A stretch of DNA of 64,000 bases. Origin: Pseudarthrobacter sulfonivorans. GTDB lineage: Bacteria > Actinomycetota > Actinomycetes > Actinomycetales > Micrococcaceae. The stretch spans positions 124,001-188,000 of the forward strand of contig NZ_JACXBW010000002.1 in NCBI RefSeq assembly GCF_014712225.1, read 5' to 3'. Below are positions 44,462 to 56,610 of this stretch, in pieces. A model generated the notes under the pieces. It did not search any database and was not told the origin of the DNA. It was given only the letters and a program-made list of their open reading frames with translations. Each line of letters opens with the position of its first letter. Positions within the stretch are counted from its first letter, which is position 1. A program made the position numbers and the translations under genes.

Positions 44462-46864
44462 GTGGCTTCCGTATTTGTGCAGGCCGACGATTTCTCCGGC
44501 GCCGCCGAGGTTGGCTACTGCTTTGTGCAGCACGGGCTGTCCACGCACGTACTGCTTGGAACGCACGTTCTTCCGGGACCGGCCGTTCTTCCGGGAACGC
44601 ACGACGGCGGCGCCTCCTTTGCCGGGCACGTCACCGACGTGGTGGTGGCCGATACGCATTCGCGCGGGCTTGCCGAGTCGGCCGCGGAAGCGCTGGCCAC
44701 AGAAGCTTTCTCCGGTGCCGCGGCGTCGGGTGCACAGGTCCTCTTCAAGAAGATCGACTCGCTCTGGCGCGGGAACGTCCGCGCGGAAGTTGCCGCGCTG
44801 ACTGGCCTGGGATTCCATGCCGTTGTTGCCGGGGCACTCCCCCAGCTGCAGCGCACGGTCCAGAATGGCAGGCCGTTCGCTGCCGGAGTTGCCCTGGCGG
44901 AGACCGAGCTGTGGCAGGCCGAACTGTCGGCCCCGCCGGCAGATATTCCTTCCCTGCTTTGCCCTGAGGATGGGGCCTCGGTGCAGACCTTGAGCCTGGC
45001 CGACGTCCGGTCCGGCTCGCTGCCCATGACGCTGGCAGGGTTCCTGGAATCCGACCAGCCCACCCTGGTGGTGGCCGACGGCGAAACGGTCCAGGACCTG
45101 GAGTCCGTGGTCGACGCCCTGCTGGAGCTGAACTTCGAAATCGGAGGTCGCCGCATTGTGCTGGTCGGCACCGGCGGAACCGCGGACGTCCTCGCGCAGC
45201 GCCTCGCCGCACAAGTTGCGCGAAGTGCGCAAGTTGGTGTTAGAGCTCAAGCAAGCACCGCGGAACCGCAGGGAGCCGCCAAGCCGGTGCTCGCCGTCGT
45301 CGGCTCCGCCTCCGGCACGGCGCAGGCGCAATTGGCCCAGCTGGAAACGCAGGGCTTCACCGTCATCAGGCTGCACCCGCAGTACGCCGGCGCAACCGGA
45401 GCCTACGGGCCGCAGCTCGAGGAAACGAAGCAGGCGCTGAGGGCGGGCACCAACGTGGCCGTCACCCTGGCCGCAGGCAAAGTGGACCCCGCAAGAGCAG
45501 CGAGCATCGTCCAGGCCCTGTCCACCTTCGCCGCCGAGGCAGCAAAGGCAACAACAACTGACCTGATCCTCACCGGCGGCGAGACGGCCCGGGAAGTCCT
45601 GGACGCCGTCGGCCGCCACAGCCTGGTGCCGCTCGCGGCCGTGCAGCACGGGGCGGTGCTCAGCCGCGCCAATGACGGGACGCTGGTGGGCACCAAGCCC
45701 GGCAGCTTCGGCGACGACCTGGCCCTCCTGCAGCTTTACGACGCAATCCGGGAGCGCCGCGGCCAGTCCGCGCAGGCTCCCGCCACCACCCTCCCCAGCA
45801 AGACTTCCGAACGATCTGGAGCAGACATGACCACCGAAGCAGCAAGCACAGCCGACCAGAAGAGCCTCCCCTACGTGGCCGTGACCATGGGCGACGGCGC
45901 CGGGGTGGGGCCGGAGGTGGTGGTGGCCGCCGTGCTGGATCCGCAGAGCAACGCCGAGTGCCGGCCCGTGGTGATCGGCGACGCGCTGCGCCTGCGCCAG
46001 GCCGCGGACATCCTGGGCATCGAGGCGGACATCCAGAGCATTGAGAACGTGGAGGACGCGGTGTTCACGCCGGGGCGGGTGAACGTGATCGACCTGGCGC
46101 TGCTGCCGGAGGACTTGGTCTGGGGCCAGCTCTCCCCCGTGGCCGGGCACGCCGCGTACGAATACATCCGGGTGGCCAGCGAGCTGGCGATGGCCGGGAA
46201 GGTGCAGGCCATCTGCACGGCGCCGCTGAACAAGGAGGCACTGCACTCGGCCGGGCACATTTTCCCCGGGCACACCGAACTGCTGGCGCACCTGACGGGC
46301 ACGGAGGAAGTGTCCATGATGCTCTCCACGCCCAAGATCCGGGTGATCCACGTGACCACGCACATCGGGCTGATGGACGCCATCCGCAAGATCAACCCGG
46401 ACCTGGTGGAGCGCACCATCCGCCGCGGCCACGAGGCCCTGGTCCGGGCCGGCATCCCGAACCCGAAGATCGGCGTCTGCGCCATCAACCCGCACGCCGG
46501 CGAGAACGGCCTGTTCGGCCAGGGCGAGGAAGCGGAAAAGATCGAACCCGGTGTGAAGGCTGCACAGGCGGACGGCATCGACGTGACCGGCCCGCTGCCG
46601 GCGGACACCCTGTTCTTCCTGGCCGGCCGCGGGGATTACGACCTGGTGGTGGCCATGTACCACGACCAGGGGCACGGCCCGGTGAAGGTGCTAGGCATCG
46701 AGGCCGGCGTGAACATCACGGTGGGCCTGCCGGTGATCCGCACATCCGTGGACCACGGCACCGCCTTCGACATCGCGGGCAAGGCAATCGCCGATTCGCG
46801 GTCCATGGTGGAGGCGCTGCACCAGGCGGCGGAGATGGCCACCCGGCCCGCCGTGGCCGTGTAG
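44462..46864 (+). CDS. Four-carbon acid-sugar kinase fused to PdxA2-type dehydrogenase
   Basis: An 800-residue two-domain enzyme. Residues 1-450 are a DUF1537 kinase: ADDFSGAAEVGYCFVQHG at the N-terminus, FKKIDSLWRGNVRAEVAAL (normally KKTDSTLRGN) and LILTGGETAREVLDAVG in the nucleotide domain. Residues 456-800 are PdxA-like: VAVTMGDGAGVGPEVVVAAV, CTAPLNKEALHSAGHIFPGH, MYHDQGHGPVKV. In the known D-threonate/erythronate routes these two activities run in succession: phosphorylation, then oxidation with decarboxylation to dihydroxyacetone phosphate. Fusion should channel the intermediate. GTG start. A GGAG ribosome-like site precedes the internal Met456 (ATG 45827), so a separate PdxA chain is also possible. 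Confidence 0.9.
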   Translation: MASVFVQADDFSGAAEVGYCFVQHGLSTHVLLGTHVLPGPAVLPGTHDGGASFAGHVTDVVVADTHSRGLAESAAEALATEAFSGAAASGAQVLFKKIDSLWRGNVRAEVAALTGLGFHAVVAGALPQLQRTVQNGRPFAAGVALAETELWQAELSAPPADIPSLLCPEDGASVQTLSLADVRSGSLPMTLAGFLESDQPTLVVADGETVQDLESVVDALLELNFEIGGRRIVLVGTGGTADVLAQRLAAQVARSAQVGVRAQASTAEPQGAAKPVLAVVGSASGTAQAQLAQLETQGFTVIRLHPQYAGATGAYGPQLEETKQALRAGTNVAVTLAAGKVDPARAASIVQALSTFAAEAAKATTTDLILTGGETAREVLDAVGRHSLVPLAAVQHGAVLSRANDGTLVGTKPGSFGDDLALLQLYDAIRERRGQSAQAPATTLPSKTSERSGADMTTEAASTADQKSLPYVAVTMGDGAGVGPEVVVAAVLDPQSNAECRPVVIGDALRLRQAADILGIEADIQSIENVEDAVFTPGRVNVIDLALLPEDLVWGQLSPVAGHAAYEYIRVASELAMAGKVQAICTAPLNKEALHSAGHIFPGHTELLAHLTGTEEVSMMLSTPKIRVIHVTTHIGLMDAIRKINPDLVERTIRRGHEALVRAGIPNPKIGVCAINPHAGENGLFGQGEEAEKIEPGVKAAQADGIDVTGPLPADTLFFLAGRGDYDLVVAMYHDQGHGPVKVLGIEAGVNITVGLPVIRTSVDHGTAFDIAGKAIADSRSMVEALHQAAEMATRPAVAV

Positions 46865-46928: not shown

Positions 46929-47708
46929 ATGCTGAGCGCAAACGCGCGGCGCGAGGAGATCTACCACCTTGCCGTGACCACCGGCCTGGCCTCCGTGGAG
47001 GAACTGTCCGCCCGGTTCGAGGTGACGGCCTCCACCATCCGCCGCGACCTGGCGCTGCTGAACGGGCAGGGCCGGCTGGCCCGCACCTACGGCGGCGCCA
47101 TGGCCCTGGGCGCGCACCCGGAGGCCTCGCTGCGGCAGCGCACCGGCGAGGCGTTTGAGCAGAAGCATGCGATCGCCCGCTGGGCGGCGTCCGTGATCGT
47201 GCCCGGGGAGAACATCCTGCTCGACGCCGGCTCCACCGTCGGTGCCTTGGCCCACGAGCTGCGCGGGTTCGATCGGTTGTCGGTGACCACGCCGGGCATC
47301 AACACCATGCAGGAACTGGCCGAGTCCGAGGGCATCGAGGTGGACTGCCTGGGCGGCCGGCTGCGGAGCGTTTCGCAGAGTTTTGTGGGGCCGCTGGCCG
47401 AGGCGGCGCTGGAGCGGATGAGCTTTGACCGGGTGTTCCTGGGCGCCGACGCCGTCACCGCCGAGGACGGCATCTGCGAGGCCGACCACGCCCAGACCCG
47501 GCTCAAGGAGCTGATGGCCCGGCGCGGGACGGCTGTTTATGTCCTGGCTGACTCGTCGAAGCTCGGGCTGCGGCCTTTTCATGCCTGGGCCCGTTTGGCT
47601 TTGCCGTGGACCTTGGTGACGGACGACGGCGCCGATCCCGAGCAGGTGCAGAAGTTCAGGGATGCGGGGGTTGAGGTTGAGGTGGCTGCGGTTTCGTCCG
47701 TCGGCTGA
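46929..47708 (+). CDS. DeoR/GlpR-family regulator
   Basis: 259 residues from ATG 46929 (MLSANARREEIYHLAVTTG), supported by GAAGGAGA upstream. The N-terminal winged helix reads ASVEELSARFEVTASTIRRD and LALLNGQGRLARTYGGAM. The C-terminal DeoR sensor domain (LLDAGSTVGALAHELRG; VFLGADAVTAEDGICEAD) binds phosphorylated sugars in this family. It follows the kinase-PdxA2 gene by 64 bases and probably controls both that gene and the divergent ABC operon via the palindrome at 44351. A degraded copy of its 3' end lies at 56467-56610. Confidence 0.93.
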   Translation: MLSANARREEIYHLAVTTGLASVEELSARFEVTASTIRRDLALLNGQGRLARTYGGAMALGAHPEASLRQRTGEAFEQKHAIARWAASVIVPGENILLDAGSTVGALAHELRGFDRLSVTTPGINTMQELAESEGIEVDCLGGRLRSVSQSFVGPLAEAALERMSFDRVFLGADAVTAEDGICEADHAQTRLKELMARRGTAVYVLADSSKLGLRPFHAWARLALPWTLVTDDGADPEQVQKFRDAGVEVEVAAVSSVG

Positions 47709-47964
47709 GTCCGGCCTGGACAAAGGCGGACACTCCCGCCGAAATAATCACTGAAAACGCACGGCTAACGCGGCCCGCCTCCCGGGCTTTCCAAGGCGGT
47801 TTTGAGGGCAACCAAAATCTTCAACACGAACGGTTGACTTGAACATGCGTCCATGTAATTCTTGTCACAGCAAGTGATCCACCTCACGATGAAGCGAAGT
47901 GGCTGTACCCATCGGAGCGTGTGTCTTGACGATGATTTCCGGACTCAGAGGAAACGGTGTAGCC
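47709..47964. other. Promoter region of the first cupin operon
   Basis: About 255 gene-free bases. The only clear element is the Crp-like site at 47874-47887. Confidence 0.5.
47874..47887. promoter_or_regulatory. Crp-like site ahead of the cupin operon
   Basis: GTGATCCACCTCAC, perfect GTGA-N6-TCAC, 78 bases before the cupin start. The paralogous cupin gene has GTGATTCACATCAC at nearly the same distance (52388-52401). Confidence 0.5.
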
Positions 47965-48375
47965 ATGGGTGCAGTCATAGAGCAGACCCCGGCAGTGACG
48001 ACGGGCAACGCAATCGATTTTTGTGCGGCGCAGCCCCTGAAGGCCCTGGGCGGCGAATGGGGGCGGCTGCAGTGCCGGTTCATCAATGCCCATCCGGTGG
48101 GCGCCTGGGATGACTTTATCCTCTCGGAATGGACGCTGGATTCCCGTGCCTGGGAGGACTTCCACCCGCACAGCGAGACCGCGTTCGTGCTGGAAGGCGA
48201 GCTCCACATTGAGAGCCAGGGCAAGACGGTCATCCTGCGGCCGGGCGACTCGGCCCGGGTCAATCCCGGCGGGGTGGGCCGGTACTGGGCACCCGTCTAC
48301 GCCCGGATGGTCACCATCTACGGACCCAACCCCGAAGGCCTGGAATCCCACTCCTTCCGCTACTCCGAACTCTGA
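47965..48375 (+). CDS. Small cupin protein A1
   Basis: 137 residues from ATG 47965 (MGAVIEQTPAVTTGNAIDF); earlier in-frame ATGs exist, but this one aligns with the start of its paralogue at 52474. Single cupin barrel: SRAWEDFHPHSETAFVLEGE is motif 1 with two His and a Glu, TVILRPGDSARVNPGG is motif 2. It is about two-thirds identical by eye to the protein at 52474-52881, so the locus holds a duplicated pair. First of three consecutive cupin genes. Metal binding is likely; substrate unknown. Context suggests a role in amine catabolism with the monooxygenase at 50129. Confidence 0.9.
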   Translation: MGAVIEQTPAVTTGNAIDFCAAQPLKALGGEWGRLQCRFINAHPVGAWDDFILSEWTLDSRAWEDFHPHSETAFVLEGELHIESQGKTVILRPGDSARVNPGGVGRYWAPVYARMVTIYGPNPEGLESHSFRYSEL

Positions 48376-48474
48376 GCACTTAGCTCCGAGCACTGAGCAC
48401 TGAGCTCTGGGCTCTGAACTCTGGGCTCTGGGCTCTGGGCTCTGGGCTCTGGGCTCTGGGCTCTGGGCTCTGGG
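48376..48474. repeat. Heptanucleotide tandem array (CTCTGGG)
   Basis: Eight perfect CTCTGGG units in tandem (48419-48474) preceded by about six degenerate units of the same 7-base phase (from about 48376), lying directly after the first cupin stop and before the second cupin gene. Slippage here would change intergenic spacing, not reading frame. Confidence 0.95.
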
Positions 48475-48536
48475 CTCCACCAAACCCCGCACAGACCTGC
48501 CGGTCCAAACGGCAACCCCTCACGAAAGGCACCACC

Positions 48537-48896
48537 ATGACCGCAACAGCTTCCATCACCGCCAGCCTCATCCGCGACGCGGCCAACATCACGGACCTCG
48601 ATGACTGGGGCCCCTGCCCCGAAGCCACCGGACCGCAGATGGACACCCGCGGCAACTACCTCTGGAAAGAGGACAACGGAACCGAATCCGGCATCTGGGA
48701 ATGCACCGCAGGACCTTCCCGCTGGGTTCTGGAAACCAACGAGTTCGTCCACGTGCTCTCAGGCTCCATGACCATCACTGCCGATGGCGGCGAGCCCCAG
48801 TTCATCGGCCCCGGCGACACCATCTTTATCCCCCGCGGCTGGAGCGGCAACTGGGAAATCCACGAGACCCTGCGCAAGCTCTACGTCATCTTCTAA
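48537..48896 (+). CDS. Small cupin protein B
   Basis: 119 residues, start supported by GAAAGG upstream. The cupin barrel includes GIWECTAGPSRWVLETNEFV, HVLSGSMTITADGGEPQFIG and PGDTIFIPRGWSGNWEIHET, the pattern of the ethanolamine/ureidoglycolate-like DUF861 cupins. The metal-ligand set is reduced (one obvious Glu and His), so it may be a binding protein or isomerase rather than an oxygenase. It lies between cupins A1 and C on one mRNA, after the heptamer array. Confidence 0.88.
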   Translation: MTATASITASLIRDAANITDLDDWGPCPEATGPQMDTRGNYLWKEDNGTESGIWECTAGPSRWVLETNEFVHVLSGSMTITADGGEPQFIGPGDTIFIPRGWSGNWEIHETLRKLYVIF

Positions 48897-48944
48897 GCCA
48901 CCCGTCAGACCATCACCACATCACCCTCACCCAAAGGAGAAACC

Positions 48945-49322
48945 ATGGAAGCCCTCACAGTAGGAACACTCAGCAAGGCCGGCGCGATCTACAAAGTAGA
49001 AAACGGCTACCTCGGACTGCCGTCCATGAACGTCCCCGGCTGCGACGCCGCAATCGCCGACTCCCTCACCCACCCCGAGGGTTCCGTCATGAGCTCCGGG
49101 TTCTTCGAGCTCAAAGCCTCCGAACCCTTGGTCTACACCTACAGCTGCGATGAAATGAAAGTCGTGGTCAAGGGCGAGTTCATCCTCACCGACCGTAAAA
49201 CCGGCGAAGTGACCCGCGCCAAGGAACGCGACGTGCTGTTCTTCCCCAAGGGATCAGAAATCACCTTCGAAACCCCCGACTACGGCCTGGGCTTCTTCAC
49301 CGCCCACGGCTCCATGTCCTAG
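48945..49322 (+). CDS. Small cupin protein C1 (EutQ-like)
   Basis: 125 residues, AAAGGAGA upstream of the ATG. Segments LGLPSMNVPGCDAAIADSL, SSGFFELKASEPLVYTYSCD and EMKVVVKGEFILTDRKTGE followed by ERDVLFFPKGSEITFET match the EutQ-like cupin family. A near twin (51597-51977) lies on the other strand beside the monooxygenase. The C-terminus FETPDYGLGFF is shared by both. Its operon with cupins A1 and B ends at a strong hairpin (49338-49383). Confidence 0.9.
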   Translation: MEALTVGTLSKAGAIYKVENGYLGLPSMNVPGCDAAIADSLTHPEGSVMSSGFFELKASEPLVYTYSCDEMKVVVKGEFILTDRKTGEVTRAKERDVLFFPKGSEITFETPDYGLGFFTAHGSMS

Positions 49323-49337
49323 GCAAGCCCACAGCAG

Positions 49338-49383
49338 CCTTGGTTCGTAGCCGCCGCACCAAGGCGGCGGCTACCAACCAAGG
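49338..49383. terminator. Convergent terminator after the cupin operon
   Basis: 20-bp stem with one mismatch (49338-49357 with 49364-49383), 6-nt loop, between convergent cupin and tetR genes. Confidence 0.75.
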
Positions 49384-49429
49384 GCAACCACGGCAACCAG
49401 GGCAGCCGTGGGAAAAAGTCCCCGAGCGC

Positions 49430-50017
49430 CTAAACGCCGGCTTTGGCCAGGAGGGCATCAACCATCATGAAGAACTGCGTGCTGTAGTCCGCAGCGTTCG
49501 GGTCGGTCATGTACTGGAGGGCGGCGCCGTCGTAAATCATCAGGAAGGCCCTCACCAGTCTCGGGAAGCTAATGAGGCACTGCTCCCCGTTGCCCTGGGC
49601 GGCGGAGGAAAAAATGCGGCCCAGCTCCACTTCGTAGGCGGGGTAGATCTTCCCGGCCAGCGGGCTGGCGGCGGCGTTGCGTGTGGCCCAGAGGATGAGT
49701 TCGATCTCGGCAAGAATGCTGGCCGGTTCCTCCTCCAGTGCGCGCCAGTACCCTTCGGCAAGCTGCTCCACGGCCTTGCGCAGACCCAGGTGAACCGGGA
49801 CGTCACTGGAGAAGCGGCTCAGGTTCTTCAGCCAGGCCTCGGCGGCCTTGTCCATGAGTTCGTCTTTATCACTAAAGCAATAGTGGGCCGTGGCCAATGG
49901 AGCGCGGGCTTCCTTGGCAATGGCCCGCATGGTCACCGATTGAATGCCCTCTCGGCGCATTAGTTCAACGGTGGCAGCAATCAGCTGTTCTTTTCTTTCC
50001 CCGGAGGATATCCGCAT
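49430..50017 (-). CDS. TetR-family regulator
   Basis: 195 residues from ATG 50017 (MRISSGERKEQLIAATVELM), with AAAGGGGGAG 6 bases upstream; a longer reading would need a TTG inside that site. Helix-turn-helix QSVTMRAIAKEARAPLATAH-YCFSDKDELMDKAA is BetI/TetR-like. Ligand domain to the end. It lies between the cupin operon and the monooxygenase gene, with terminators on both sides, so it has its own promoter and is the likely local regulator of the amine-oxidation locus. Confidence 0.92.
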   Translation of the reverse strand: MRISSGERKEQLIAATVELMRREGIQSVTMRAIAKEARAPLATAHYCFSDKDELMDKAAEAWLKNLSRFSSDVPVHLGLRKAVEQLAEGYWRALEEEPASILAEIELILWATRNAAASPLAGKIYPAYEVELGRIFSSAAQGNGEQCLISFPRLVRAFLMIYDGAALQYMTDPNAADYSTQFFMMVDALLAKAGV

Positions 50018-50049
50018 AACCACTCCCCCTTTCAACGGTTACCGGCGGA

Positions 50050-50090
50050 CCGCCCCAATGGTCCAACGGGTTGTTGGACCATTGGGGCGG
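50050..50090. terminator. Terminator between the monooxygenase and tetR genes
   Basis: Perfect 18-bp stem (50050-50067 with 50073-50090), loop GGGTT. It ends the minus-strand cupin-monooxygenase operon before tetR. Confidence 0.8.
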
Positions 50091-50128
50091 CTCGCATCGG
50101 GACGGCCGGCGGCCGTTTTGGTTTGCAG

Positions 50129-51526
50129 TTAGACCGCGGCTGCGGTCTCGGTGAGGATGTCGGGCGTAGTGTCGAGGTCCTGGGAGGGGCCGTTAAGGTA
50201 CCGCTCCATGGAGTCGTCCATGGCGTTGATCCACCGCGTATGGTGCTTGGTGGCCATGGTGCCGGTGACTACTGAGCGGTGCAGCATGTCGCGGTAGCCC
50301 AGGATGTCATCGTGCTTGTGGCGCATCCAGTCCTTGAACAGCTGGCAGACTGCGTCCAGGTCGAAGGGCGGGTAGTCAGTGGAGTCAATGAGTTCCCGCA
50401 GGTAGTCGGTCTGGAAGTCCGCTTCGGCGTCGTGGTCAGGCAGCGCGGCCTGGCGTTCGAGCCACAGCTGGATGTCCGCCTCGCGTTCGGCGAGGGACGG
50501 GAGCGTGATCTTGCCGGTCATGACGTCGCGGGCGAACCAGGCCTGGGCGTCGAACATGTTGAAGGTGTAGTACTGGTCCTGCGCGCCAAGATAGAAGAGG
50601 TTGGTGTTCTGCTGCCAAACCACGCCCTTGTAGAGGTTGCCCGGGTAGAGGACGTTCGGGGATTTCAGGGACAGTTCGCTGGGCAGGTACGGGTACTTGT
50701 GCTGGTATCCGGTGCAGAGCACGACGGCGTCAAAGTCGTCATGGGTGCCGTCACTGAAGTAGGCGGTGCTGCCTTCGAAGCGGGTCACCAGCGGGCGTTC
50801 GGTGGTGTTTTCCGGCCAGTGGTAGGCCATGGGGGTGCTGCGGAAGCTGAGGGTGATGGATGCCGCGCCCATCTTGTGGGACTGCATGCCGATGTCCTCG
50901 GCGGAGTAGCTGCTGCCGATCATGAGCAGCTTCTTGCCGTAGAAGCGCTCGGCCCCGCGGAAATCGTGGGCGTGCATCACTTCGCCGGGGAAGGTTTTGA
51001 TGCCCTTGAATTCCGGCACGGCAGGGACGTGGAAGTGGCCGGTGGCCACCACCAGTTTGTCGAACACGTGGGTTTCCGTCAGGCCCGTCTTGAGGTCCTC
51101 CACCGTCACCGTGAATTCCTGGGTGTCCTGGTTGTAGCTGGTGTGGCGGGCAACGGTGTTGAACCTGACGTACTGGCGGACGTCGGACTTTTCCACGCGG
51201 CCCTTGATGTAGTCGAAGAGGACTTCCCGGGGCGGGAAGGAGGAAATCGGGCGGCCGAAGTGCTCATCGAAGGAGTAGTCGGAGAATTCCAGGCACTCCT
51301 TGGGCCCGTTGGACCATAGGTGGCGATACATGCTGGAGTGGACCGGCTCACCGTATCCGTCCAGCCCGATCCGCCAGCTGTTGTTCCACTGGCCGCCCCA
51401 GTCGTCCTGCTTTTCAAAGCACAGGATCTCGGGGATTTCCGCGCCTTTCTGGCGTGCCGATTCAAAAGCCCGCAGTTGTGCCAGGCCGCTGGGTCCCGCA
51501 CCGATGATTCCGACTCGTAAAGTCAT
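50129..51526 (-). CDS. Flavin-containing monooxygenase, trimethylamine monooxygenase (Tmm)-like
   Basis: A 465-residue FAD/NADPH monooxygenase. FAD motif GIIGAGPSGLAQLRAF (residues 6-21), FMO fingerprint FPGEVMHAHDF, NADPH motif MIGSSYSAEDIG. Long stretches follow the bacterial trimethylamine monooxygenase pattern: DDWGGQWNNSWRIGLDGYGE, SSMYRHLWSNGPKECLEFSD, YYTFNMFDAQAWFARDVMTG and TMATKHHTRWINAMDDS. Tmm enzymes oxidise trimethylamine and related tertiary amines or sulfides to N- or S-oxides. The gene has a strong ribosome site (AAAGGAGAG), follows cupin C2 and is near an APC permease. Oxidation of a methylated amine is likely; the substrate is not proven. Confidence 0.9.
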   Translation of the reverse strand: MTLRVGIIGAGPSGLAQLRAFESARQKGAEIPEILCFEKQDDWGGQWNNSWRIGLDGYGEPVHSSMYRHLWSNGPKECLEFSDYSFDEHFGRPISSFPPREVLFDYIKGRVEKSDVRQYVRFNTVARHTSYNQDTQEFTVTVEDLKTGLTETHVFDKLVVATGHFHVPAVPEFKGIKTFPGEVMHAHDFRGAERFYGKKLLMIGSSYSAEDIGMQSHKMGAASITLSFRSTPMAYHWPENTTERPLVTRFEGSTAYFSDGTHDDFDAVVLCTGYQHKYPYLPSELSLKSPNVLYPGNLYKGVVWQQNTNLFYLGAQDQYYTFNMFDAQAWFARDVMTGKITLPSLAEREADIQLWLERQAALPDHDAEADFQTDYLRELIDSTDYPPFDLDAVCQLFKDWMRHKHDDILGYRDMLHRSVVTGTMATKHHTRWINAMDDSMERYLNGPSQDLDTTPDILTETAAAV

Positions 51527-51596
51527 GCTGCTCTCCTTTTCAAAAATTATGGTTCACCTTGAAAGGCGTAGTGGTTGGGGTTGCGCCGCTGGGTGC

Positions 51597-51977
51597 TTAG
51601 GGTGCGAAGGTGCGGTCGCCGGCGAAGAAGCCCAGGCCGTATTCGGGGGTCTCGAATTTGACGGTGGTGCCCTTCGGGAAGAACAGCACATCGCGTTCCT
51701 TGGCGTGTGTTACTTCGCCCGTGGTCTGGTCCGTGAGGATGAATTCACCGGCGATGACCACTTTCATTTCGTCGTACGTGTAGGTGTAAACCAGCGGCTC
51801 GGAGGCCTTCAGTTCGAAAAAGCCGGAGCACATGACGGAACCGGCGGGGTTGTGGAGGGAGTCGCCGATTGCGGCTGCCGTGCCGGGCTCGTTCATCGAC
51901 GGCAGTCCGATGTAGCCGTTTTCCACCTTGTGGATGGAGCCGGCTTTGGTGAGTGTTCCTACGAGGGTGGTTTCCAT
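51597..51977 (-). CDS. Small cupin protein C2 (EutQ-like), upstream of the monooxygenase
   Basis: 126 residues, AAGGAGAA before the start. Near twin of cupin C1 (48945-49322): IHKVENGYIGLPSMNEPGTA, FFELKASEPLVYTYTYDEMK, AKERDVLFFPKGTTVKFETP. It is 70 bases upstream of the Tmm-like gene on the same strand, so the two are probably co-transcribed. This linkage is the strongest hint that the cupins act on an amine or amine-oxide intermediate rather than being incidental. Confidence 0.9.
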   Translation of the reverse strand: METTLVGTLTKAGSIHKVENGYIGLPSMNEPGTAAAIGDSLHNPAGSVMCSGFFELKASEPLVYTYTYDEMKVVIAGEFILTDQTTGEVTHAKERDVLFFPKGTTVKFETPEYGLGFFAGDRTFAP

Positions 51978-52473
51978 GGTTTCTCCTTGAATTGGGCACG
52001 GATTTTGAAAGGGTAAAAATCTCTTGGGGACTGTTCATGAAGGCATGTACAGGCAGGGGTAATTGCCCTTTTGGCGCGGTAGGGAATGCATTGAAGGGTG
52101 GCCTCTGCAACCGGGTTATGGGTCGGGGAGGGATTGCGGTAGAACCGATATTCGTGATTTACAACGGACCAGCTGAGCTCCTCTTTGAGCTCTGCGGTGT
52201 GAAGTGAATCACGTTTGCCTGTTCACCGACTTTTACATGAACGGCCGTGCAAGTCAATCGTTCAGAACAATATTTTTGGGATTACTTTTGAGACCGGACG
52301 CTCAGGCCCGGAAGGTAAGGGACCTTCTAGATTCCTTGTCATAGACCCTTGACTGGGACGGCCGTCAATGTCAAAGTTTTCAAATCCGTGATTCACATCA
52401 CGTCGATGTAAGTGATTCTGATTCACCGACATGTTCCGCAAGCAGCTTTTCGACTGAAGAACGGTGAAAGACA
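51978..52473. other. Divergent control region of the two cupin arms
   Basis: About 495 gene-free bases. It holds GTGAATCACG (52206-52215), GTGATTCACATCAC (52388-52401) and GTGATT-CTG-ATTCAC (52412-52426), all variants of one inverted-repeat word, spread between divergent genes. The density suggests several operator copies for one regulator. Confidence 0.5.
52388..52401. promoter_or_regulatory. Crp-like site ahead of cupin A2
   Basis: GTGATTCACATCAC, perfect GTGA-N6-TCAC, 73 bases before the cupin A2 start; counterpart of 47874-47887. Confidence 0.5.
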
Positions 52474-52881
52474 ATGTCCACAGCCATCCAGGCCCCGTCA
52501 CTGACGACGGGGGCAGCTCTCGACTTCTGGTCAGCGAAGTCCATGACGGTCATGAAGGACGAATGGCCGCGCCTCCGCTGCCGTTTTATCAACGCAAATC
52601 CCGTAGGCCCATGGGAGGATTTCCGGCTCTCCGAATGGGAATTGGAGGCCTGCGGCTGGGAAGATTTCCACCCTCACAGCGAGACGAACTTCGTGGTGGA
52701 AGGCGAGCTTTACATCGAGTCCGAGGGCAAGACCGTCACCCTCAGGCCAGGTGACTCCGCACGCGTCAACCCCGGACAACTGGGCCGGTACTGGGCCCCC
52801 GTCTATGCCCGGATGGTCACCGTCTACGGCCCCAACCCGGAGGGCGCGGAGTCGCATTCCTTCCGGTACTACGAACTCTAG
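52474..52881 (+). CDS. Small cupin protein A2
   Basis: 135 residues, paralogue of cupin A1. Shared blocks: FINANPVGPWEDFRLSEWEL, GWEDFHPHSETNFVVEGELY, TVTLRPGDSARVNPGQLGRY. Both copies keep the same His/Glu cupin motif. It is followed 443 bases later by the APC permease on the same strand. The A1/A2 and C1/C2 pairs, split over two transcription units, suggest an inverted duplication of a cupin module. Confidence 0.9.
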   Translation: MSTAIQAPSLTTGAALDFWSAKSMTVMKDEWPRLRCRFINANPVGPWEDFRLSEWELEACGWEDFHPHSETNFVVEGELYIESEGKTVTLRPGDSARVNPGQLGRYWAPVYARMVTVYGPNPEGAESHSFRYYEL

Positions 52882-53324
52882 GTCTCACGCCCCCCTCCCC
52901 CGCGTTCGCTGCGAGGCAAGGCGAGTCGTAGAAGATTCGCCGGCATCCCCAGGATTTATCGCCGGCTCAAGCACGCCATCAGAGCTTCCGCATTTCGGCA
53001 CATCGCGTTCATTCCGGGCGCCAGGCACGATCCCATTCGCCCCTCCATGCTCCGGAATTCCGGTCCAGGCTGAGATCACTGCCCAGATATAAACGCGCCT
53101 CAATTCCTATTTTCGGGCAGTAATTCAATGCAATTGCAGACCGCAGTTGCAGGTTTGGCTGAGCCGAAAAACTCTGCTTATACCAACGTTTGACCTGCCC
53201 CTCCGCACGCACGGATTGGACGAATTTCGTGTCCGCAGGAGTTTTTCCAAACGTCATAGATATTCAAACTGAGTTATTCAAATTAAATGACCTGACGACA
53301 CTGAAGTCGTCTAAGGAGAGTGTT
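52882..53324. other. Leader region of the APC permease gene
   Basis: About 440 bases, AT-richer than the surroundings, with no gene. A small hairpin GACGAC-ACTGAA-GTCGTC (53294-53311) ends 1 base before the AAGGAGAG ribosome site of the permease gene and could affect its translation. Confidence 0.5.
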
Positions 53325-54821
53325 ATGAGTAAAAATCTTTCGGAGGGTGTTGGCCACCTGGAAAGGTCGATCAACTGGAAACAGGGCTTGGCCATCGCAC
53401 TGGGCGTCCCCCTGTTGATTCTGCCGTCCCTGGGCTATCTGCCCATGTACATGGCTGCCGCCGCAATCCTGATCTGGGGGCTGTCGGTGATTCAGGGGTT
53501 CATCCAGAACGCTGCCTACGCTGAACTGGCCACCACCTTTCCCAAGGCCTCCGGCCTGCCGGGCTTCGCCCAGCATGTGTTCCGCACGGAGAACTACAAA
53601 GGGAAGTATGACAAGGGCAAGCTGATCGGCGGCTTCTCCGCCTGGAGCTACTGGTTTGCCTGGAACCCGGTCCTGGCGATCTTCGCCATCCTGGTGGGCG
53701 GCTACCTGCATGGATTGTTCCCCGCCCTTGCCGAGACCTTCACCGAGTATCAGCTCTCACTGATTTCGGGCCTGGTGATCTTCGCGGGACTCTTCCTGGT
53801 CAACTGGTTCGGCCTGAAGGACGGCGCCATCCTGGGCTACATCCTGGCGGCGGTTTCGCTGATCCCGCTGGTCATCCTGACGGTGGCGCCGTTTGCCACC
53901 GGACATGTGGACTTCGCCAACATCACCGGCAACTGGTGGCCCGCCGACTGGACCTGGGACATGCACCACGTCCTGATTCTCTTCGGCATCTTTGCCATTG
54001 CGCAGTGGAGCGCCTGCGGCTGGGAAACCGCCGCCATCTACGCCCCCGAATACAAGAACCCGTCCAAGGATGTCCCGAAGGCACTGTTTGCCTGCGGCGC
54101 CATCTGCTTCCTCTCGTACGTGCTGGTGCAGGCCGCGGTGATCGGCGTGCTCGGTGTTGACGGTGTGATGGCAGAGCCCGTCTCGCCCCTGATTCCTGTG
54201 GCGCAGGCTGTCTTTGGCCAGGCCGGCTCCGTGATCACCATCATCATGCTGATCGCGGCCATGATCCTGATCATCCAGACGGCTTACCTGGGTTCATCCC
54301 GCGCCATGCACTCCATGACCACCGAAGGCAACCTGCCCAGGGTCTTCGGCAAAACGAACCGCCACGGGACTCCCTTTGTTGCACTGCTGGTCACCGCGGC
54401 GTTCAACATGGCACTGATTTCCATGGGGTCCCTCTCGGCAATTCTCGCGGCCGCCGCCATTGGCTACACCTGCGCCAACGGCATCAGCTTGTTCGCCTAC
54501 GTCAAAGCCAAGAAGCACCCCGCCTTCGCCACCCTGGAACGGCCCTTCAAGGCCCCCAAGGGCTGGAAGCATGTGGCCCTGACGTTCGGCCTGTTCAATC
54601 TTCCGCTGTGCCTGATCGGCGTGGTCTACCTGAACAGCCAGGAAATCGGCTGGACCTCAACCTGGCTCGGCTTCCTCGTCCTCTCGCTCTACATCCCAAT
54701 TTGGTTCTATTCGCAGCGCGAATCGAACCGTTCGGACACCGAAGTTGTCACTTCCGACTCTTGGGACGACGACCTGGATAACGATCCCCGGGACCTGGAA
54801 AGGGTTCCATCACCCAGCTGA
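53325..54821 (+). CDS. APC-superfamily amino acid/amine permease
   Basis: About 498 residues from ATG 53325 (MSKNLSEGVGHLERSINWKQ), AAGGAGAG just upstream. Twelve helices of the amino acid-polyamine-organocation type. TM1 region INWKQGLAIALGVPLLILPS corresponds to the usual substrate loop. TYLGSSRAMHSMTTEGNLP-like segment (AYLGSSRAMHSMTTEGNLPR) in the middle is family-typical. It is the likely uptake route for the substrate of the Tmm-like monooxygenase and cupins. The gene ends 19 bases before a 36-bp palindrome. Confidence 0.9.
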   Translation: MSKNLSEGVGHLERSINWKQGLAIALGVPLLILPSLGYLPMYMAAAAILIWGLSVIQGFIQNAAYAELATTFPKASGLPGFAQHVFRTENYKGKYDKGKLIGGFSAWSYWFAWNPVLAIFAILVGGYLHGLFPALAETFTEYQLSLISGLVIFAGLFLVNWFGLKDGAILGYILAAVSLIPLVILTVAPFATGHVDFANITGNWWPADWTWDMHHVLILFGIFAIAQWSACGWETAAIYAPEYKNPSKDVPKALFACGAICFLSYVLVQAAVIGVLGVDGVMAEPVSPLIPVAQAVFGQAGSVITIIMLIAAMILIIQTAYLGSSRAMHSMTTEGNLPRVFGKTNRHGTPFVALLVTAAFNMALISMGSLSAILAAAAIGYTCANGISLFAYVKAKKHPAFATLERPFKAPKGWKHVALTFGLFNLPLCLIGVVYLNSQEIGWTSTWLGFLVLSLYIPIWFYSQRESNRSDTEVVTSDSWDDDLDNDPRDLERVPSPS

Positions 54822-54839
54822 TCCCGGCTGCACAGGAGG

Positions 54840-54875
54840 AGCGCCGCCGTCGTAATTAATTACGACGGCGGCGCT
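54840..54875. terminator. 36-bp perfect palindrome, convergent terminator
   Basis: Arms AGCGCCGCCGTCGTAA (16 bp) around TTAA, perfectly symmetrical over 36 bases, so it can pair as an 18-bp hairpin or cruciform. It lies between the APC gene and a broken hydrolase gene. Confidence 0.8.
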
Positions 54876-54969
54876 CCCGTGCCGGGGCACGTCACCTGTG
54901 GCGGCGGGTGAGCAGAGCGGGTATGGGGGCTTCAGCAGCTGAGTCCTTGCCATTGCCGGATCCTGCCAA

Positions 54970-55830
54970 CTATCCGCGCGCCGTCGTGCGCCCATGCTCT
55001 TCCTCGAAGAACCGCAGTGCCCTGGCTGCAGTCTGCCCGGGGCGGTGGTCCACGAAGTGCCCCGCACCGGGCAGGGTCTCCGTGGTGATGTTGCGGCCGC
55101 GGCCGGGGTGGTGCCCCATCCCCTGCAGCGTTCCGGACGGGTCCGCCGCCCCGACAATCACCAGAGTCCGGACGGAGAAATTCCGTTTGGCGTAGGCGCC
55201 GGTGATGATGGCCATAAACGCCGGAACGAGCATTGTGCGGTAGAGGGCCGGCGCCGGCGCTGCCCTTTCAGGCGGTGCCATCGCCGCACGGTAGAACCGA
55301 TGTCCGCCTCGGTCACCCCGCCGGGTGGGTCGAAAGCCATAAAAAGGTGACGCATCAGCTTCCGGCTCTTGATGAGGCGGGCACCGATACCCGGTGCCGC
55401 CAGCCCGAAGACATGCCACAGCTTGGGGAACACCCGCAGCAGCTGGGTGTTTGGCTTGATGTGCACGTCCGGGGCGCCGGTGACAACCAGCGCCTCAACC
55501 AGATCGGGCCGTTCCATGGCCAGCAACTGGGCCACCACGGCGCCCCAGTCGTGTGTGAGGAAGCGCGCCCGCGGGATGTTCTATTCGACCATGAGCTGGA
55601 CAATGTCCTCCACCAGGGTGTGGGCGTCGAAGCCACGCTTTGGTGCAGCGGTCCAGCCGAAGCCGCGCTGGTCCACGGCGATCACCCGGTAGTGCTTGGC
55701 CAGGCTGGGGATGGCGCGTGCCATTCCCACCAGTTCTGCGGAAATCCGTGGAGCAGGATCAGCGGCTCCCCGCGCCGGCCTCCGCAATGTGCATCCGCAA
55801 CCCGCGGACATCGATCCACCGCTGGGTCAC
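54970..55830 (-). pseudogene. Broken alpha/beta hydrolase (haloalkane dehalogenase/epoxide hydrolase-like)
   Basis: Homologous pieces lie in order but in changing frames: TQRWIDVRGLRMHIAEAGAG (about 55765-55827), then GEPLILLHGFPQNWWEW after a frame shift, then AIPSLAKHYRVIAVDQRGFG after another shift. An in-frame TAG follows (55581-55583, after QLMVE). The next piece, ARFLTHDWGAVVAQLLAMER, includes the nucleophile-elbow Asp. The last part (PALYRTMLVPAFMAIITGAY, ENITTETLPGAGHFV-like end) is again shifted. At least three frameshifts and one nonsense codon make it non-functional. Confidence 0.9.
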
Positions 55831-55888
55831 ACACCCTCAAGGTGTGGCATGGCGGTTCCGTCGACAACGCTGTCTGTCTCGTCCCTGG

Positions 55889-56224
55889 GTTGGAACGGAC
55901 GAAGCTTCAGCAATCGCCGCCACTCTGTGGGATCAGATCTCGCAGCCGGGCCAAACAGTTCTGCTTCACTTGATACAAGCGACCAGTGACAAGACTGAGC
56001 ATTTCCGTCCAGAGGAGATCGCCGAGGCCATCTCGCACCCGAAAGGCACGTCGGGCGTGGCAGGCATACTCGGCGGGATGGGCAAGGCCATCCGTCGCGC
56101 AGGCCTTCCGATGTACACCACGCCAAGGGGTAATTCCTGGCACTACATCTGGGACTGGGACGGCGAGCGCTACTCCATGACCCCGGAGGTCGCCCGGCTC
56201 TTGCGCGCGGCCTCACGCCACTGA
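55889..56224 (+). pseudogene. Truncated winged-helix-like protein (possibly DUF6416 type), no start
   Basis: An open reading with real protein character from GTDEASAIAATLWDQI: FRPEEIAEAISHPKGTSGVA followed by GILGGMGKAIRRAGLPMYTT and YIWDWDGERYSMTPEVARLL. No plausible start with ribosome site exists, and its upstream part overlaps the broken hydrolase, so the 5' end appears lost. It resembles small DNA-binding-like proteins of DUF6416 type from memory. Probably a remnant. Confidence 0.6.
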
Positions 56225-56250
56225 CGGCAAGTCTCCCCGCACCTGGACCA

Positions 56251-56283
56251 CGACGGCGGCACCCGGCCGAGGTGCCGCCGTCG
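56251..56283. terminator. Hairpin after the truncated gene (ACGACGGCGG type)
   Basis: 13-bp perfect stem (56251-56263 with 56271-56283), 7-nt loop; shares the CGACGGCGG word with three other hairpins. Confidence 0.65.
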
Positions 56284-56303
56284 CGGTCTTTGAGCGCGCG
56301 CCG

Positions 56304-56466
56304 CTAGGCAGCGGTGTATCCGCCGTCCACGTTGACGATGGATCCTGTCATGGCCGACGACCCGTCCCCCGCGAGGAACAGGAAAACATCGGCGATCTCC
56401 TCCGGCCGGAGCAACCGGCCGATGGGCTGCCTGGAGACCATGTGGGAGCGCGTCTCCTCCGGCAAC
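56304..56466 (-). pseudogene. C-terminal fragment of a short-chain dehydrogenase
   Basis: Only the last ~53 residues of an SDR remain: SRQPIGRLLRPEEIADVFLF-LAGDGSSAMTGSIVNVDGGY. The Rossmann and catalytic parts are missing. Its 5' side abuts a DeoR fragment on the opposite strand. Confidence 0.8.
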
Positions 56467-56610
56467 TGCTCCAGCCTGCGGCCGTTCACTGCTTGGGCCT
56501 GCTTTGGCGCACCCCTGGACCTGGTGACGGACGACGGCGCAGACCCCGAGCAGGTGCAGAAGTTTAGGGATGCCGGGGTTGAGGTTGAGGTGGCTGCGAC
56601 AGCGCCTTGA
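56467..56610 (+). pseudogene. 3' fragment of a DeoR-type regulator, copy of the gene at 46929
   Basis: Encodes LRPFTAWACFGAPLDLVTDD-GADPEQVQKFRDAGVEVEVA, nearly the same as the C-terminus of the intact DeoR protein ending at 47708. The similarity starts at the LRPF codons (about 56470) and stops with the gene. It is the mark of a past recombination or a lost paralogue. Confidence 0.85.

Follow-up and report, generated by a model that had tools for sequence, protein, structure and literature searches.

Why should a single flavoprotein monooxygenase be accompanied by five small cupins? The question is raised by a locus of Pseudarthrobacter sulfonivorans (contig NZ_JACXBW010000002.1) that we analysed within a 64 kb stretch of DNA, hereafter the window, taken from a genome of 4.93 Mb in 58 contigs (99.9% complete). 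Single-domain cupins of three families (A1 and A2, B, C1 and C2) lie there around a trimethylamine monooxygenase (Tmm), together with a TetR-family regulator and an APC permease. An earlier reading of the sequence alone (the original prediction) had proposed an undescribed amine pathway. Our analysis suggests instead, with a probability of roughly 0.75, that an actinobacterial methylated-amine pathway of the ribulose monophosphate (RuMP) type has its trimethylamine module here, combined with a portion of a second cupin module. What is new are the multi-cupin modules, the tie of cupin C to dimethylamine demethylation, a shared upstream site, and a missing demethylase for trimethylamine N-oxide (TMAO). 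The substrates, reactions, cupin roles and regulation given for this strain are inferred.

Cupin C co-occurs with the dimethylamine demethylase

The distribution of the cupins was assessed in 295 genomes of the family and in an order-wide draw of 278 genomes, which includes the window's genome and some of the same genomes. Cupins A and C were counted at a threshold of 1e-20, at which diverged copies may be missed; the C gene of G264, truncated at a contig end (L106), escaped the search, and the statistics treat this genome as C-negative. Among the 295 genomes, 70 carried Tmm above the cut-off, 34 carried PF11927 (the haem subunit of the dimethylamine demethylase), 13 carried C and 12 carried A. 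All 13 genomes with C also had PF11927 (Fisher p = 5.9e-14; the PF11927 gene of G056 is truncated where its contig ends), 11 of the 13 had Tmm (p = 3.6e-6), and C was present in 7 of the 12 genomes with A (p = 3.5e-8); because the sampled genomes are related, these p-values overstate independence. Specifically, C occurred in 11 of the 19 Tmm genomes with PF11927 and in 2 of the 15 PF11927 genomes without Tmm. Since none of the 51 Tmm genomes lacking PF11927 carried C, we rejected an explanation of the cupins by Tmm alone. The order-wide draw held C in 2 of 278 genomes, both with PF11927, which was found in 10. Cupin C is tied to the dimethylamine demethylase more strictly than to Tmm.

The surroundings of Tmm were read in the best 80 of 553 confirmed Tmm loci (two of them, L009 and L010, come from the same strain and overlap). 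Cupin C lies in 26 of these neighbourhoods (in L021 as a fragment only), cupin A in 22, and neither in 53. In a Tmm tree of the 80 rows, 25 rows labelled as cupin-linked group with L021, whose C is cut, in one clade of 26 (support 99/98) that comprises Micrococcaceae, Cryobacterium and Mycobacteriaceae; the cupin-linked L055 falls outside it. The co-occurrence check that accompanied the original prediction was thereby run, and an association limited to this strain does not hold, since the cupins accompany Tmm in many strains. As a separate observation, most of the loci L033 to L052 have close Tmm homologues (75–85% identity), nearly all from Micrococcaceae, and lack both cupins; a dmm operon was not seen in their vicinity.

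The flavoprotein, the permease and their companion genes

All eight genes have open reading frames at the places given in Table 1 (open reading frames (ORFs) plus Pfam and NCBIfam profile searches). The domain models identify A1, B, C1, C2 and A2 as cupins (A2 via Pfam only), next to a TetR regulator, a protein like flavin-containing monooxygenases (FMOs) and an AA_permease_2 protein, in agreement with the gene content first proposed. The flavoprotein passes the NCBIfam equivalog model for the monooxygenase of trimethylamine, the smell of rotting fish (NF058570; 740.5 bits, cut-off 675, residues 4–445), and aligns over 446–449 residues with solved bacterial FMOs, including trimethylamine monooxygenase 6kbw (638.1 bits). 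Judged by these matches, it is a genuine Tmm-type enzyme. The APC protein is a probable amine importer, and a paralogue of it (82% identical) stands next to the dmm genes elsewhere in the genome, on contig C26. Amine import, as the original prediction had it, is plausible for this transporter, but the curated cut-off of the TMAO permease model NF053774 (690) is missed at 214.6 bits, even though this is its best-scoring model. The transporter type varies between loci (APC, PF02133 type, BetT).

The window's genome holds five copies each of cupin C and cupin A. Contig C26 (L091) carries genes for GntR/FCD, a PDC sensor, APC, cupin C, DmmA, ferredoxin reductase, the PF11927 haem subunit and the start of Mao, divergent from those for HxlB, HxlA and glucose-6-phosphate dehydrogenase. 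The DmmA-family protein (NF041259, 98.2 bits, cut-off 60), HxlA (TIGR03128, 254.2 bits, cut-off 200) and HxlB (TIGR03127, 234 bits, cut-off 160) all pass their models; the haem N-demethylase subunit scores 224.2 bits with PF11927, and its orthologue in Arthrobacter sp. 35W matches the solved structure 5lte at 2.5e-84. Mao is represented by its first ~50 codons, cut by the end of C26 (84% identical to the Mao of 35W). A dmm layout resembling that of C26 is present in 35W (L095; with a full copper amine oxidase) and in G270 (L093). No GcvT match, and hence no GcvT-type dmmD, was found in the dmm operons of L091 (3' side cut by the contig end) or L095, where cupin C stands first. The absence of one-carbon genes noted in the original prediction is therefore true within the window, but genes for dimethylamine monooxygenase and the RuMP cycle are present on C26. 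Elsewhere, contig C11 (L089) carries an A-B-C triple divergent to a BetT-type choline transporter (769.1 bits, cut-off 695), plus A and C, and contig C10 (L092) carries TetR, A and B.

A tie of cupin C to the RuMP genes as a rule was considered and rejected. Only 6 of the 13 C genomes (G000, G098, G113, G182, G239, G270) have HxlA above the cut-off; G034, G055, G188, G209, G219 and G245 have no HxlA match at 1e-20, and the match in G056 is below the cut-off.

The TMAO step

DUF1989, which we take to be the first domain of the TMAO demethylase Tdm, has no match at 1e-5 in the window's genome (99.9% complete; a draft gap or a different enzyme is possible). The statement that no TMAO demethylase is visible can thus be extended genome-wide for the DUF1989 type. 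The genome has six GCV_T matches, none of them with DUF1989; Tdm is described as a TMAO demethylase with a GcvT domain (PMC5520151, as far as cited here). DUF1989 occurs in 18 of 73 genomes searched and forms ORFs of 796–799 aa in only four (G034, G060, G102, G119; one genus). GcvT similarity was seen nearby too; none of the four genomes has A, and G034 has C. In the seven genomes where A and C occur together, Tmm and PF11927 are always present and DUF1989 gives no match; six of the seven have HxlA above the cut-off. This makes the gap at the TMAO step sharp.

Remnants of dmm operons beside cupin C

Three arrangements recur among the loci: a module T of A, TetR, C and Tmm, in many cases with an APC or PF02133 permease; a module D of APC, C, DmmA, reductase, PF11927 and Mao; and an A-B-C-BetT module with TetR near (L094, L097, L098, L135, L137). 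The cupin locus looks like an A1-B-C1 arm of the A-B-C-BetT kind, without BetT, joined to a T module. The original prediction had instead explained the two arms by duplication and splitting of one cupin module. The paralogy that it named is real, with A1 and A2 71% identical (96/135 residues) and C1 and C2 73% (91/125); identity across the A, B and C families is 20–25% in three pairs compared. A local duplication is nonetheless not favoured, because C1 is closer in DNA to the C of the C11 triple (85.1%) than to C2 (78.4%), and A1 is closer to the A of that triple (84.2%) than to A2 (74.6%). The arms look like two different modules.

In the dmm operon, 9 bp separate the end of the cupin C gene from dmmA, and on a Candidatus Mycobacterium methanotrophicum plasmid the gene immediately ahead of dmmA encodes a relative of C (52% identical). 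Traces of this neighbourhood are also found next to Tmm. One locus of Paenarthrobacter PH39-S1 (L028, the same as L128) has C followed by dmmA, an interrupted reductase gene, a haem-subunit gene and, last, Tmm. At a second locus of this strain (L026/L130) and in B2a2-09 (L035), C and Tmm are separated by short remnants of dmmA and of the 3' end of the haem-subunit gene, and in 35W (L027/L096) by remnants of dmmA only. Reductase-gene pieces precede BetT in four of seven BetT loci (L089, L098, L132, L137; not L094, L097 or L135) and follow C in L131, at a contig end. Given these remnants, those T and BetT modules that include C have the appearance of shrunken dmm operons, which would fit an origin of C as a dmm gene. 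That C has been kept open beside Tmm despite the loss of dmm genes argues that it still acts there.

Two further observations concern single loci. In G188 (contig C1, 621964–622823), a broken Tmm gene with in-frame stops adjoins cupin C and dmm genes. Relatives of cupin A (50–63%) also occur without Tmm in L125–L127, together with TetR, a ribose-type ABC importer and an aldehyde-dehydrogenase-like gene, and with an aminotransferase-like gene beside A in L125 and L126 (not in the stretch of L127 that was read); these neighbours were named by eye.

Cupin pockets

Residues of A and C were placed by the two-motif His/Glu metal-ligand layout that we assume for cupins. In cupin A, D64, H66 and E70 stand at motif 1, no His stands at the presumed place of motif 2, and D64, H66, H68, E70 and H128 are invariant across 22 aligned rows. 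In motif 1 of cupin C, the positions of the metal-binding His residues are taken by Y64 and Y66, and E70 is retained. Cupin A would be the better candidate for metal-assisted chemistry. The predicted model of A has a mean predicted local distance difference test (pLDDT) score of 40.4; that of C reaches a moderate 73.1, and its fold matches are cupins of many kinds, a list that says nothing against any one family missing from it. No DNA-binding domain was found in A, B or C with Pfam.

The EutQ-type domain PF06249 (gathering score 21) is passed by C1 (36 bits), C2 (31.4) and B (24.2), and the EutQ equivalog NF012001 (cut-off 193) is failed by C1 (36.8) and C2 (35.6). Cupin C resembles EutQ in its sequence-profile matches (PDB 2pyt and 4axo; 2e-10 and 4.1e-5) and in the fold match of its model to 4axo (Z 9.0, root-mean-square deviation 3.8, 88 aligned). 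It also resembles EutQ in having aromatics in place of His ligands with the Glu retained: the EutQ structure paper, in the part drawn on here, describes His replaced by aromatic or hydrophobic residues, a retained Glu and a metal-independent pocket with no known ligand (PMC3483176). Unlike EutQ, cupin C is single-domain, lies far under the equivalog cut-off and stands in a methylated-amine context rather than a eut operon.

A shared site upstream of A and C

The motif GTGA-N6-TCAC occurs four times in the window, compared with 1.2 expected (mean of 20 first-order shuffles), and three of the four are at cupin promoters. These are the matching Crp-like sites of the original prediction, at A1, C2 and A2, and related loci have them ahead of A and C as well. 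Counting promoters with identical last 120 bases once (related loci are not independent), we found a site in the upstream 250 bp for 29 of 44 A promoters, usually at 85–98 bp, and for 28 of 54 C promoters, usually at 174–235 bp. It is found in none of 12 B, 12 B2, 83 Tmm and 6 BetT promoters, upstream of 9 of the 613 remaining genes in these loci and in 2.5% of random 250-bp windows. The genes are probably controlled by the TetR protein together with the Crp-like site.

Comparison with described systems

McTaggart et al. (2015) described methylated-amine clusters of Arthrobacter 31Y, 35W and MA-N2 and of Mycobacterium 141 and 155 (PMC5023230). EutQ-like cupins next to Tmm and Mao are reported there, and the table lists 35W Tmo 3598 beside EutQ 3597. 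The window's genome is like these clusters, as far as that account describes them, in its EutQ-like cupin C adjoining Tmm and in HxlA and HxlB, and it may share Mao, the start of which lies at the end of C26; the Tmm-adjacent C of 35W, MA-N2 and 141 are 92, 90 and 85% identical to C2. It differs in the added A-B-C arm, and the parts of the survey cited here do not deal with cupins A and B. The survey reports, in those same parts, no separate dimethylamine monooxygenase; the gene that it puts forward as 'Tmd' (35W 3579, flanked by Mao 3577 and EutQ 3581) is, by gene order (L095), the reductase of the dmm operon. PMC5023230 was the only publication found that links EutQ-like cupins with methylamine genes, and others may exist in print. 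C beside Tmm had been described before; what is new here, as far as we found, are the multi-cupin modules.

With the proteobacterial tmm-tdm-dmmDABC system (Ruegeria, Methylocella, Paracoccus; PMC5520151, PMC4543880, in the parts cited), the window's genome shares Tmm, the DmmA family, the reductase and the PF11927 haem subunit. Unlike that system, it has no DUF1989 match and no GcvT-type dmmD beside the dmm genes, cupin C heads the operon, methylamine is probably degraded by an oxidase, and formaldehyde is probably fixed by the RuMP cycle.

Proposed pathway and alternatives

We propose that the APC protein would import trimethylamine or TMAO and that Tmm would convert trimethylamine to TMAO. 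A further enzyme would then split TMAO into dimethylamine and formaldehyde, and the haem-dependent dimethylamine monooxygenase of C26 would release methylamine and formaldehyde from dimethylamine. A methylamine oxidase would yield formaldehyde and ammonia, and HxlA and HxlB would fix the formaldehyde. Cupin C may originally have been the head gene of the dmm operon and an accessory of demethylation, left beside Tmm and in BetT modules after the loss of dmm genes and kept intact; most likely, it would use a metal-free pocket of the EutQ type to handle the formaldehyde set free, or an adduct of amine and aldehyde. The Tmm and BetT modules are accompanied by cupins A and B, and some other amine operons by A.

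Several observations weigh against this interpretation. No TMAO demethylase was identified, which leaves a gap in the chain. Copper amine oxidase PF01179 has no match in the window's genome. A dmm fragment between C2 and Tmm was not found in the window, nor in most of the other Tmm loci checked. Of 36 PF11927 places in 34 genomes, 29 were read: C is close by in 14 and 9.5 kb away in 1, GcvT takes its place in 2 (G049, G125), 1 is cut by a contig end, and 11 have neither C nor GcvT. Cupin C is thus not required by the PF11927 enzyme family.

The gap at the TMAO step invites the idea that cupins A and C together replace the bifunctional Tdm, with A demethylating TMAO and C accepting the formaldehyde, the task ascribed to the GcvT domain of Tdm and DmmD. 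The window's genome lacks a DUF1989 match, the four of 73 genomes with fused 796–799 aa ORFs all lack A, and the five invariant residues of A could suit catalysis by it. C is also often first in its operon, as is the GcvT-type dmmD in Ruegeria (PMC5520151, in the part cited) and the GcvT gene in G049 and G125. We nevertheless consider this replacement quite improbable. In G209, G219 and G245, which carry Tmm and C, both A (at 1e-20) and a fused DUF1989 ORF are missing, which counts against A as a general substitute, and C follows the dmm genes in G209, G219 and G188 rather than heading them. Further, A lies beside an ABC importer and aldehyde dehydrogenase in the absence of Tmm (L125–L127), C appears to lack metal ligands, the active site of A is not visible in a model with mean pLDDT of 40, and the dmm remnants account for C beside Tmm without a role in the TMAO step.

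In the original prediction the cupins rearrange or sense the N-oxide or another unstable product, which they may do; the stricter tie of C to the dimethylamine demethylase, its seemingly inherited place beside Tmm and the operons with A but no Tmm bear on this idea. The cupins could also be sensors or regulators, that is, ligand-binding partners of TetR or Crp-type regulators rather than enzymes. This would agree with the TetR gene that adjoins A in many contexts, including operons without Tmm, and with the conserved site common to A and C. We regard it as unlikely, given that Pfam finds no DNA-binding domain in any of the three families, that C sits inside the dmm operon just before dmmA, and that some genomes hold up to four identical copies, which suits a dose-dependent protein better. 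As for an undescribed pathway on a non-methylated amine, Tmm-type enzymes are promiscuous and the transporters differ among loci, but the Tmm model is passed, all 13 genomes with C also carry a dimethylamine-demethylase gene, and the RuMP genes lie in the same genome. Together with the description of EutQ-like cupins beside Tmm in the 2015 survey (PMC5023230, parts cited), this leaves the pathway of the original prediction very improbable, and a methylated-amine module of the RuMP type the preferred interpretation.

Locus layout and mobility

The features of the locus are listed in Table 1. The start of A1 is more likely the ATG at 47965 than the GTG at 47899, where the ORF opens, and 70 bp separate the end of C2 from tmm. 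The A1-B gap holds a tandem array of CTCTGAG-like units (48363–48477; period 7/14/21). Outside the cupin locus, a single 800-aa ORF at 44462–46864 resembles, by eye, a sugar-acid kinase fused to a PdxA-type dehydrogenase.

Table 1 Features of the cupin and Tmm locus (window coordinates).
Feature	Position	Strand	Remarks
77-nt direct repeat, left copy	47614..47690	+	3' end of deoR-type gene; 95% identical to right copy
GTGA-N6-TCAC (Crp-like) site	47874..47887		91 bp upstream of A1
Cupin A1	47965..48375	+	136 aa from ATG; Cupin_2/Cupin_3; 71% to A2
Cupin B	48537..48896	+	Cupin_3 PF05899 1.3e-21, EutQ-like domain; A/C partner in A-B-C-BetT modules
Cupin C1, EutQ-like	48945..49322	+	PF06249 7.2e-9; 86% to the C copy in the C11 triple of this genome
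TetR-family regulator	49430..50035	-	PF00440 5.5e-9; orthologues adjoin Tmm and A in other loci
Inverted repeat, perfect 18 bp, 5-nt loop	50050..50090		between tmm stop and tetR start; read from sequence
Trimethylamine monooxygenase (Tmm)	50129..51526	-	NF058570 740.5 bits; 6kbw 638.1 bits
Cupin C2, EutQ-like	51597..51977	-	PF06249 1.9e-7; 92% to Tmm-adjacent orthologue of Arthrobacter sp. 35W
GTGA-N6-TCAC site	52199..52212		222 bp upstream of C2
GTGA-N6-TCAC site	52388..52401		86 bp upstream of A2
Cupin A2	52474..52881	+	PF05899 1.3e-9
APC permease	53325..54821	+	AA_permease_2 6.6e-48; best NCBIfam model NF053774, below cut-off
77-nt direct repeat, right copy	56522..56598	+	pairs with left copy to bracket the island

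The two copies of the 77-nt repeat bracket positions 47691–56521, and the pair looks like an insertion footprint. G+C content is 54–63% over most of the bracketed stretch and 66–70% to its left, and among the genus genomes in the draw (24 listed) Tmm exceeds the cut-off in G000 only. From these features, the island looks horizontally acquired. An empty insertion site was not found; the right flank matches only pieces of 30–40 bases in 2 of the other 24 genus genomes.

The C genes of several genomes are nearly identical to one another. Within 35W, G270, MA-N2, Cryobacterium Y29 and PH31-O1, and Mycolicibacterium CBMA 234, the C ORFs are 99.2–100% identical in DNA. The flanks of near-identical copies (compared in 35W, G270, MA-N2 and Y29) are mostly unrelated; two pairs share a flank. 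Judged by this pattern, C genes are subject to ORF-sized concerted evolution in several genera, and McTaggart et al. noted 'almost identical copies' (PMC5023230, part cited). Three of the four C copies in G113 are alike at 96–99%; there is no such likeness in the window's genome (75–86%), G098 (77–87%) or G182 (77%).

Implications

In the 2015 survey, as cited here, the gene for the first demethylation of TMAO in Gram-positive users of trimethylamine was only guessed (PMC5023230). The cupins described above are short, expressible candidates for the handling of TMAO or formaldehyde; if they are passive accessories, the finding would be an ordinary one. A bolder possibility, which we hold to be rather improbable, is that C is a stand-in for the folate-binding DmmD and an unrecognised partner of the actinobacterial dimethylamine monooxygenase, and that A (with B) and C replace both halves of Tdm. 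If this were true, a set of cupins would take over the work of a demethylase system that depends on folate, chiefly in bacteria whose formaldehyde is fixed through the RuMP cycle.

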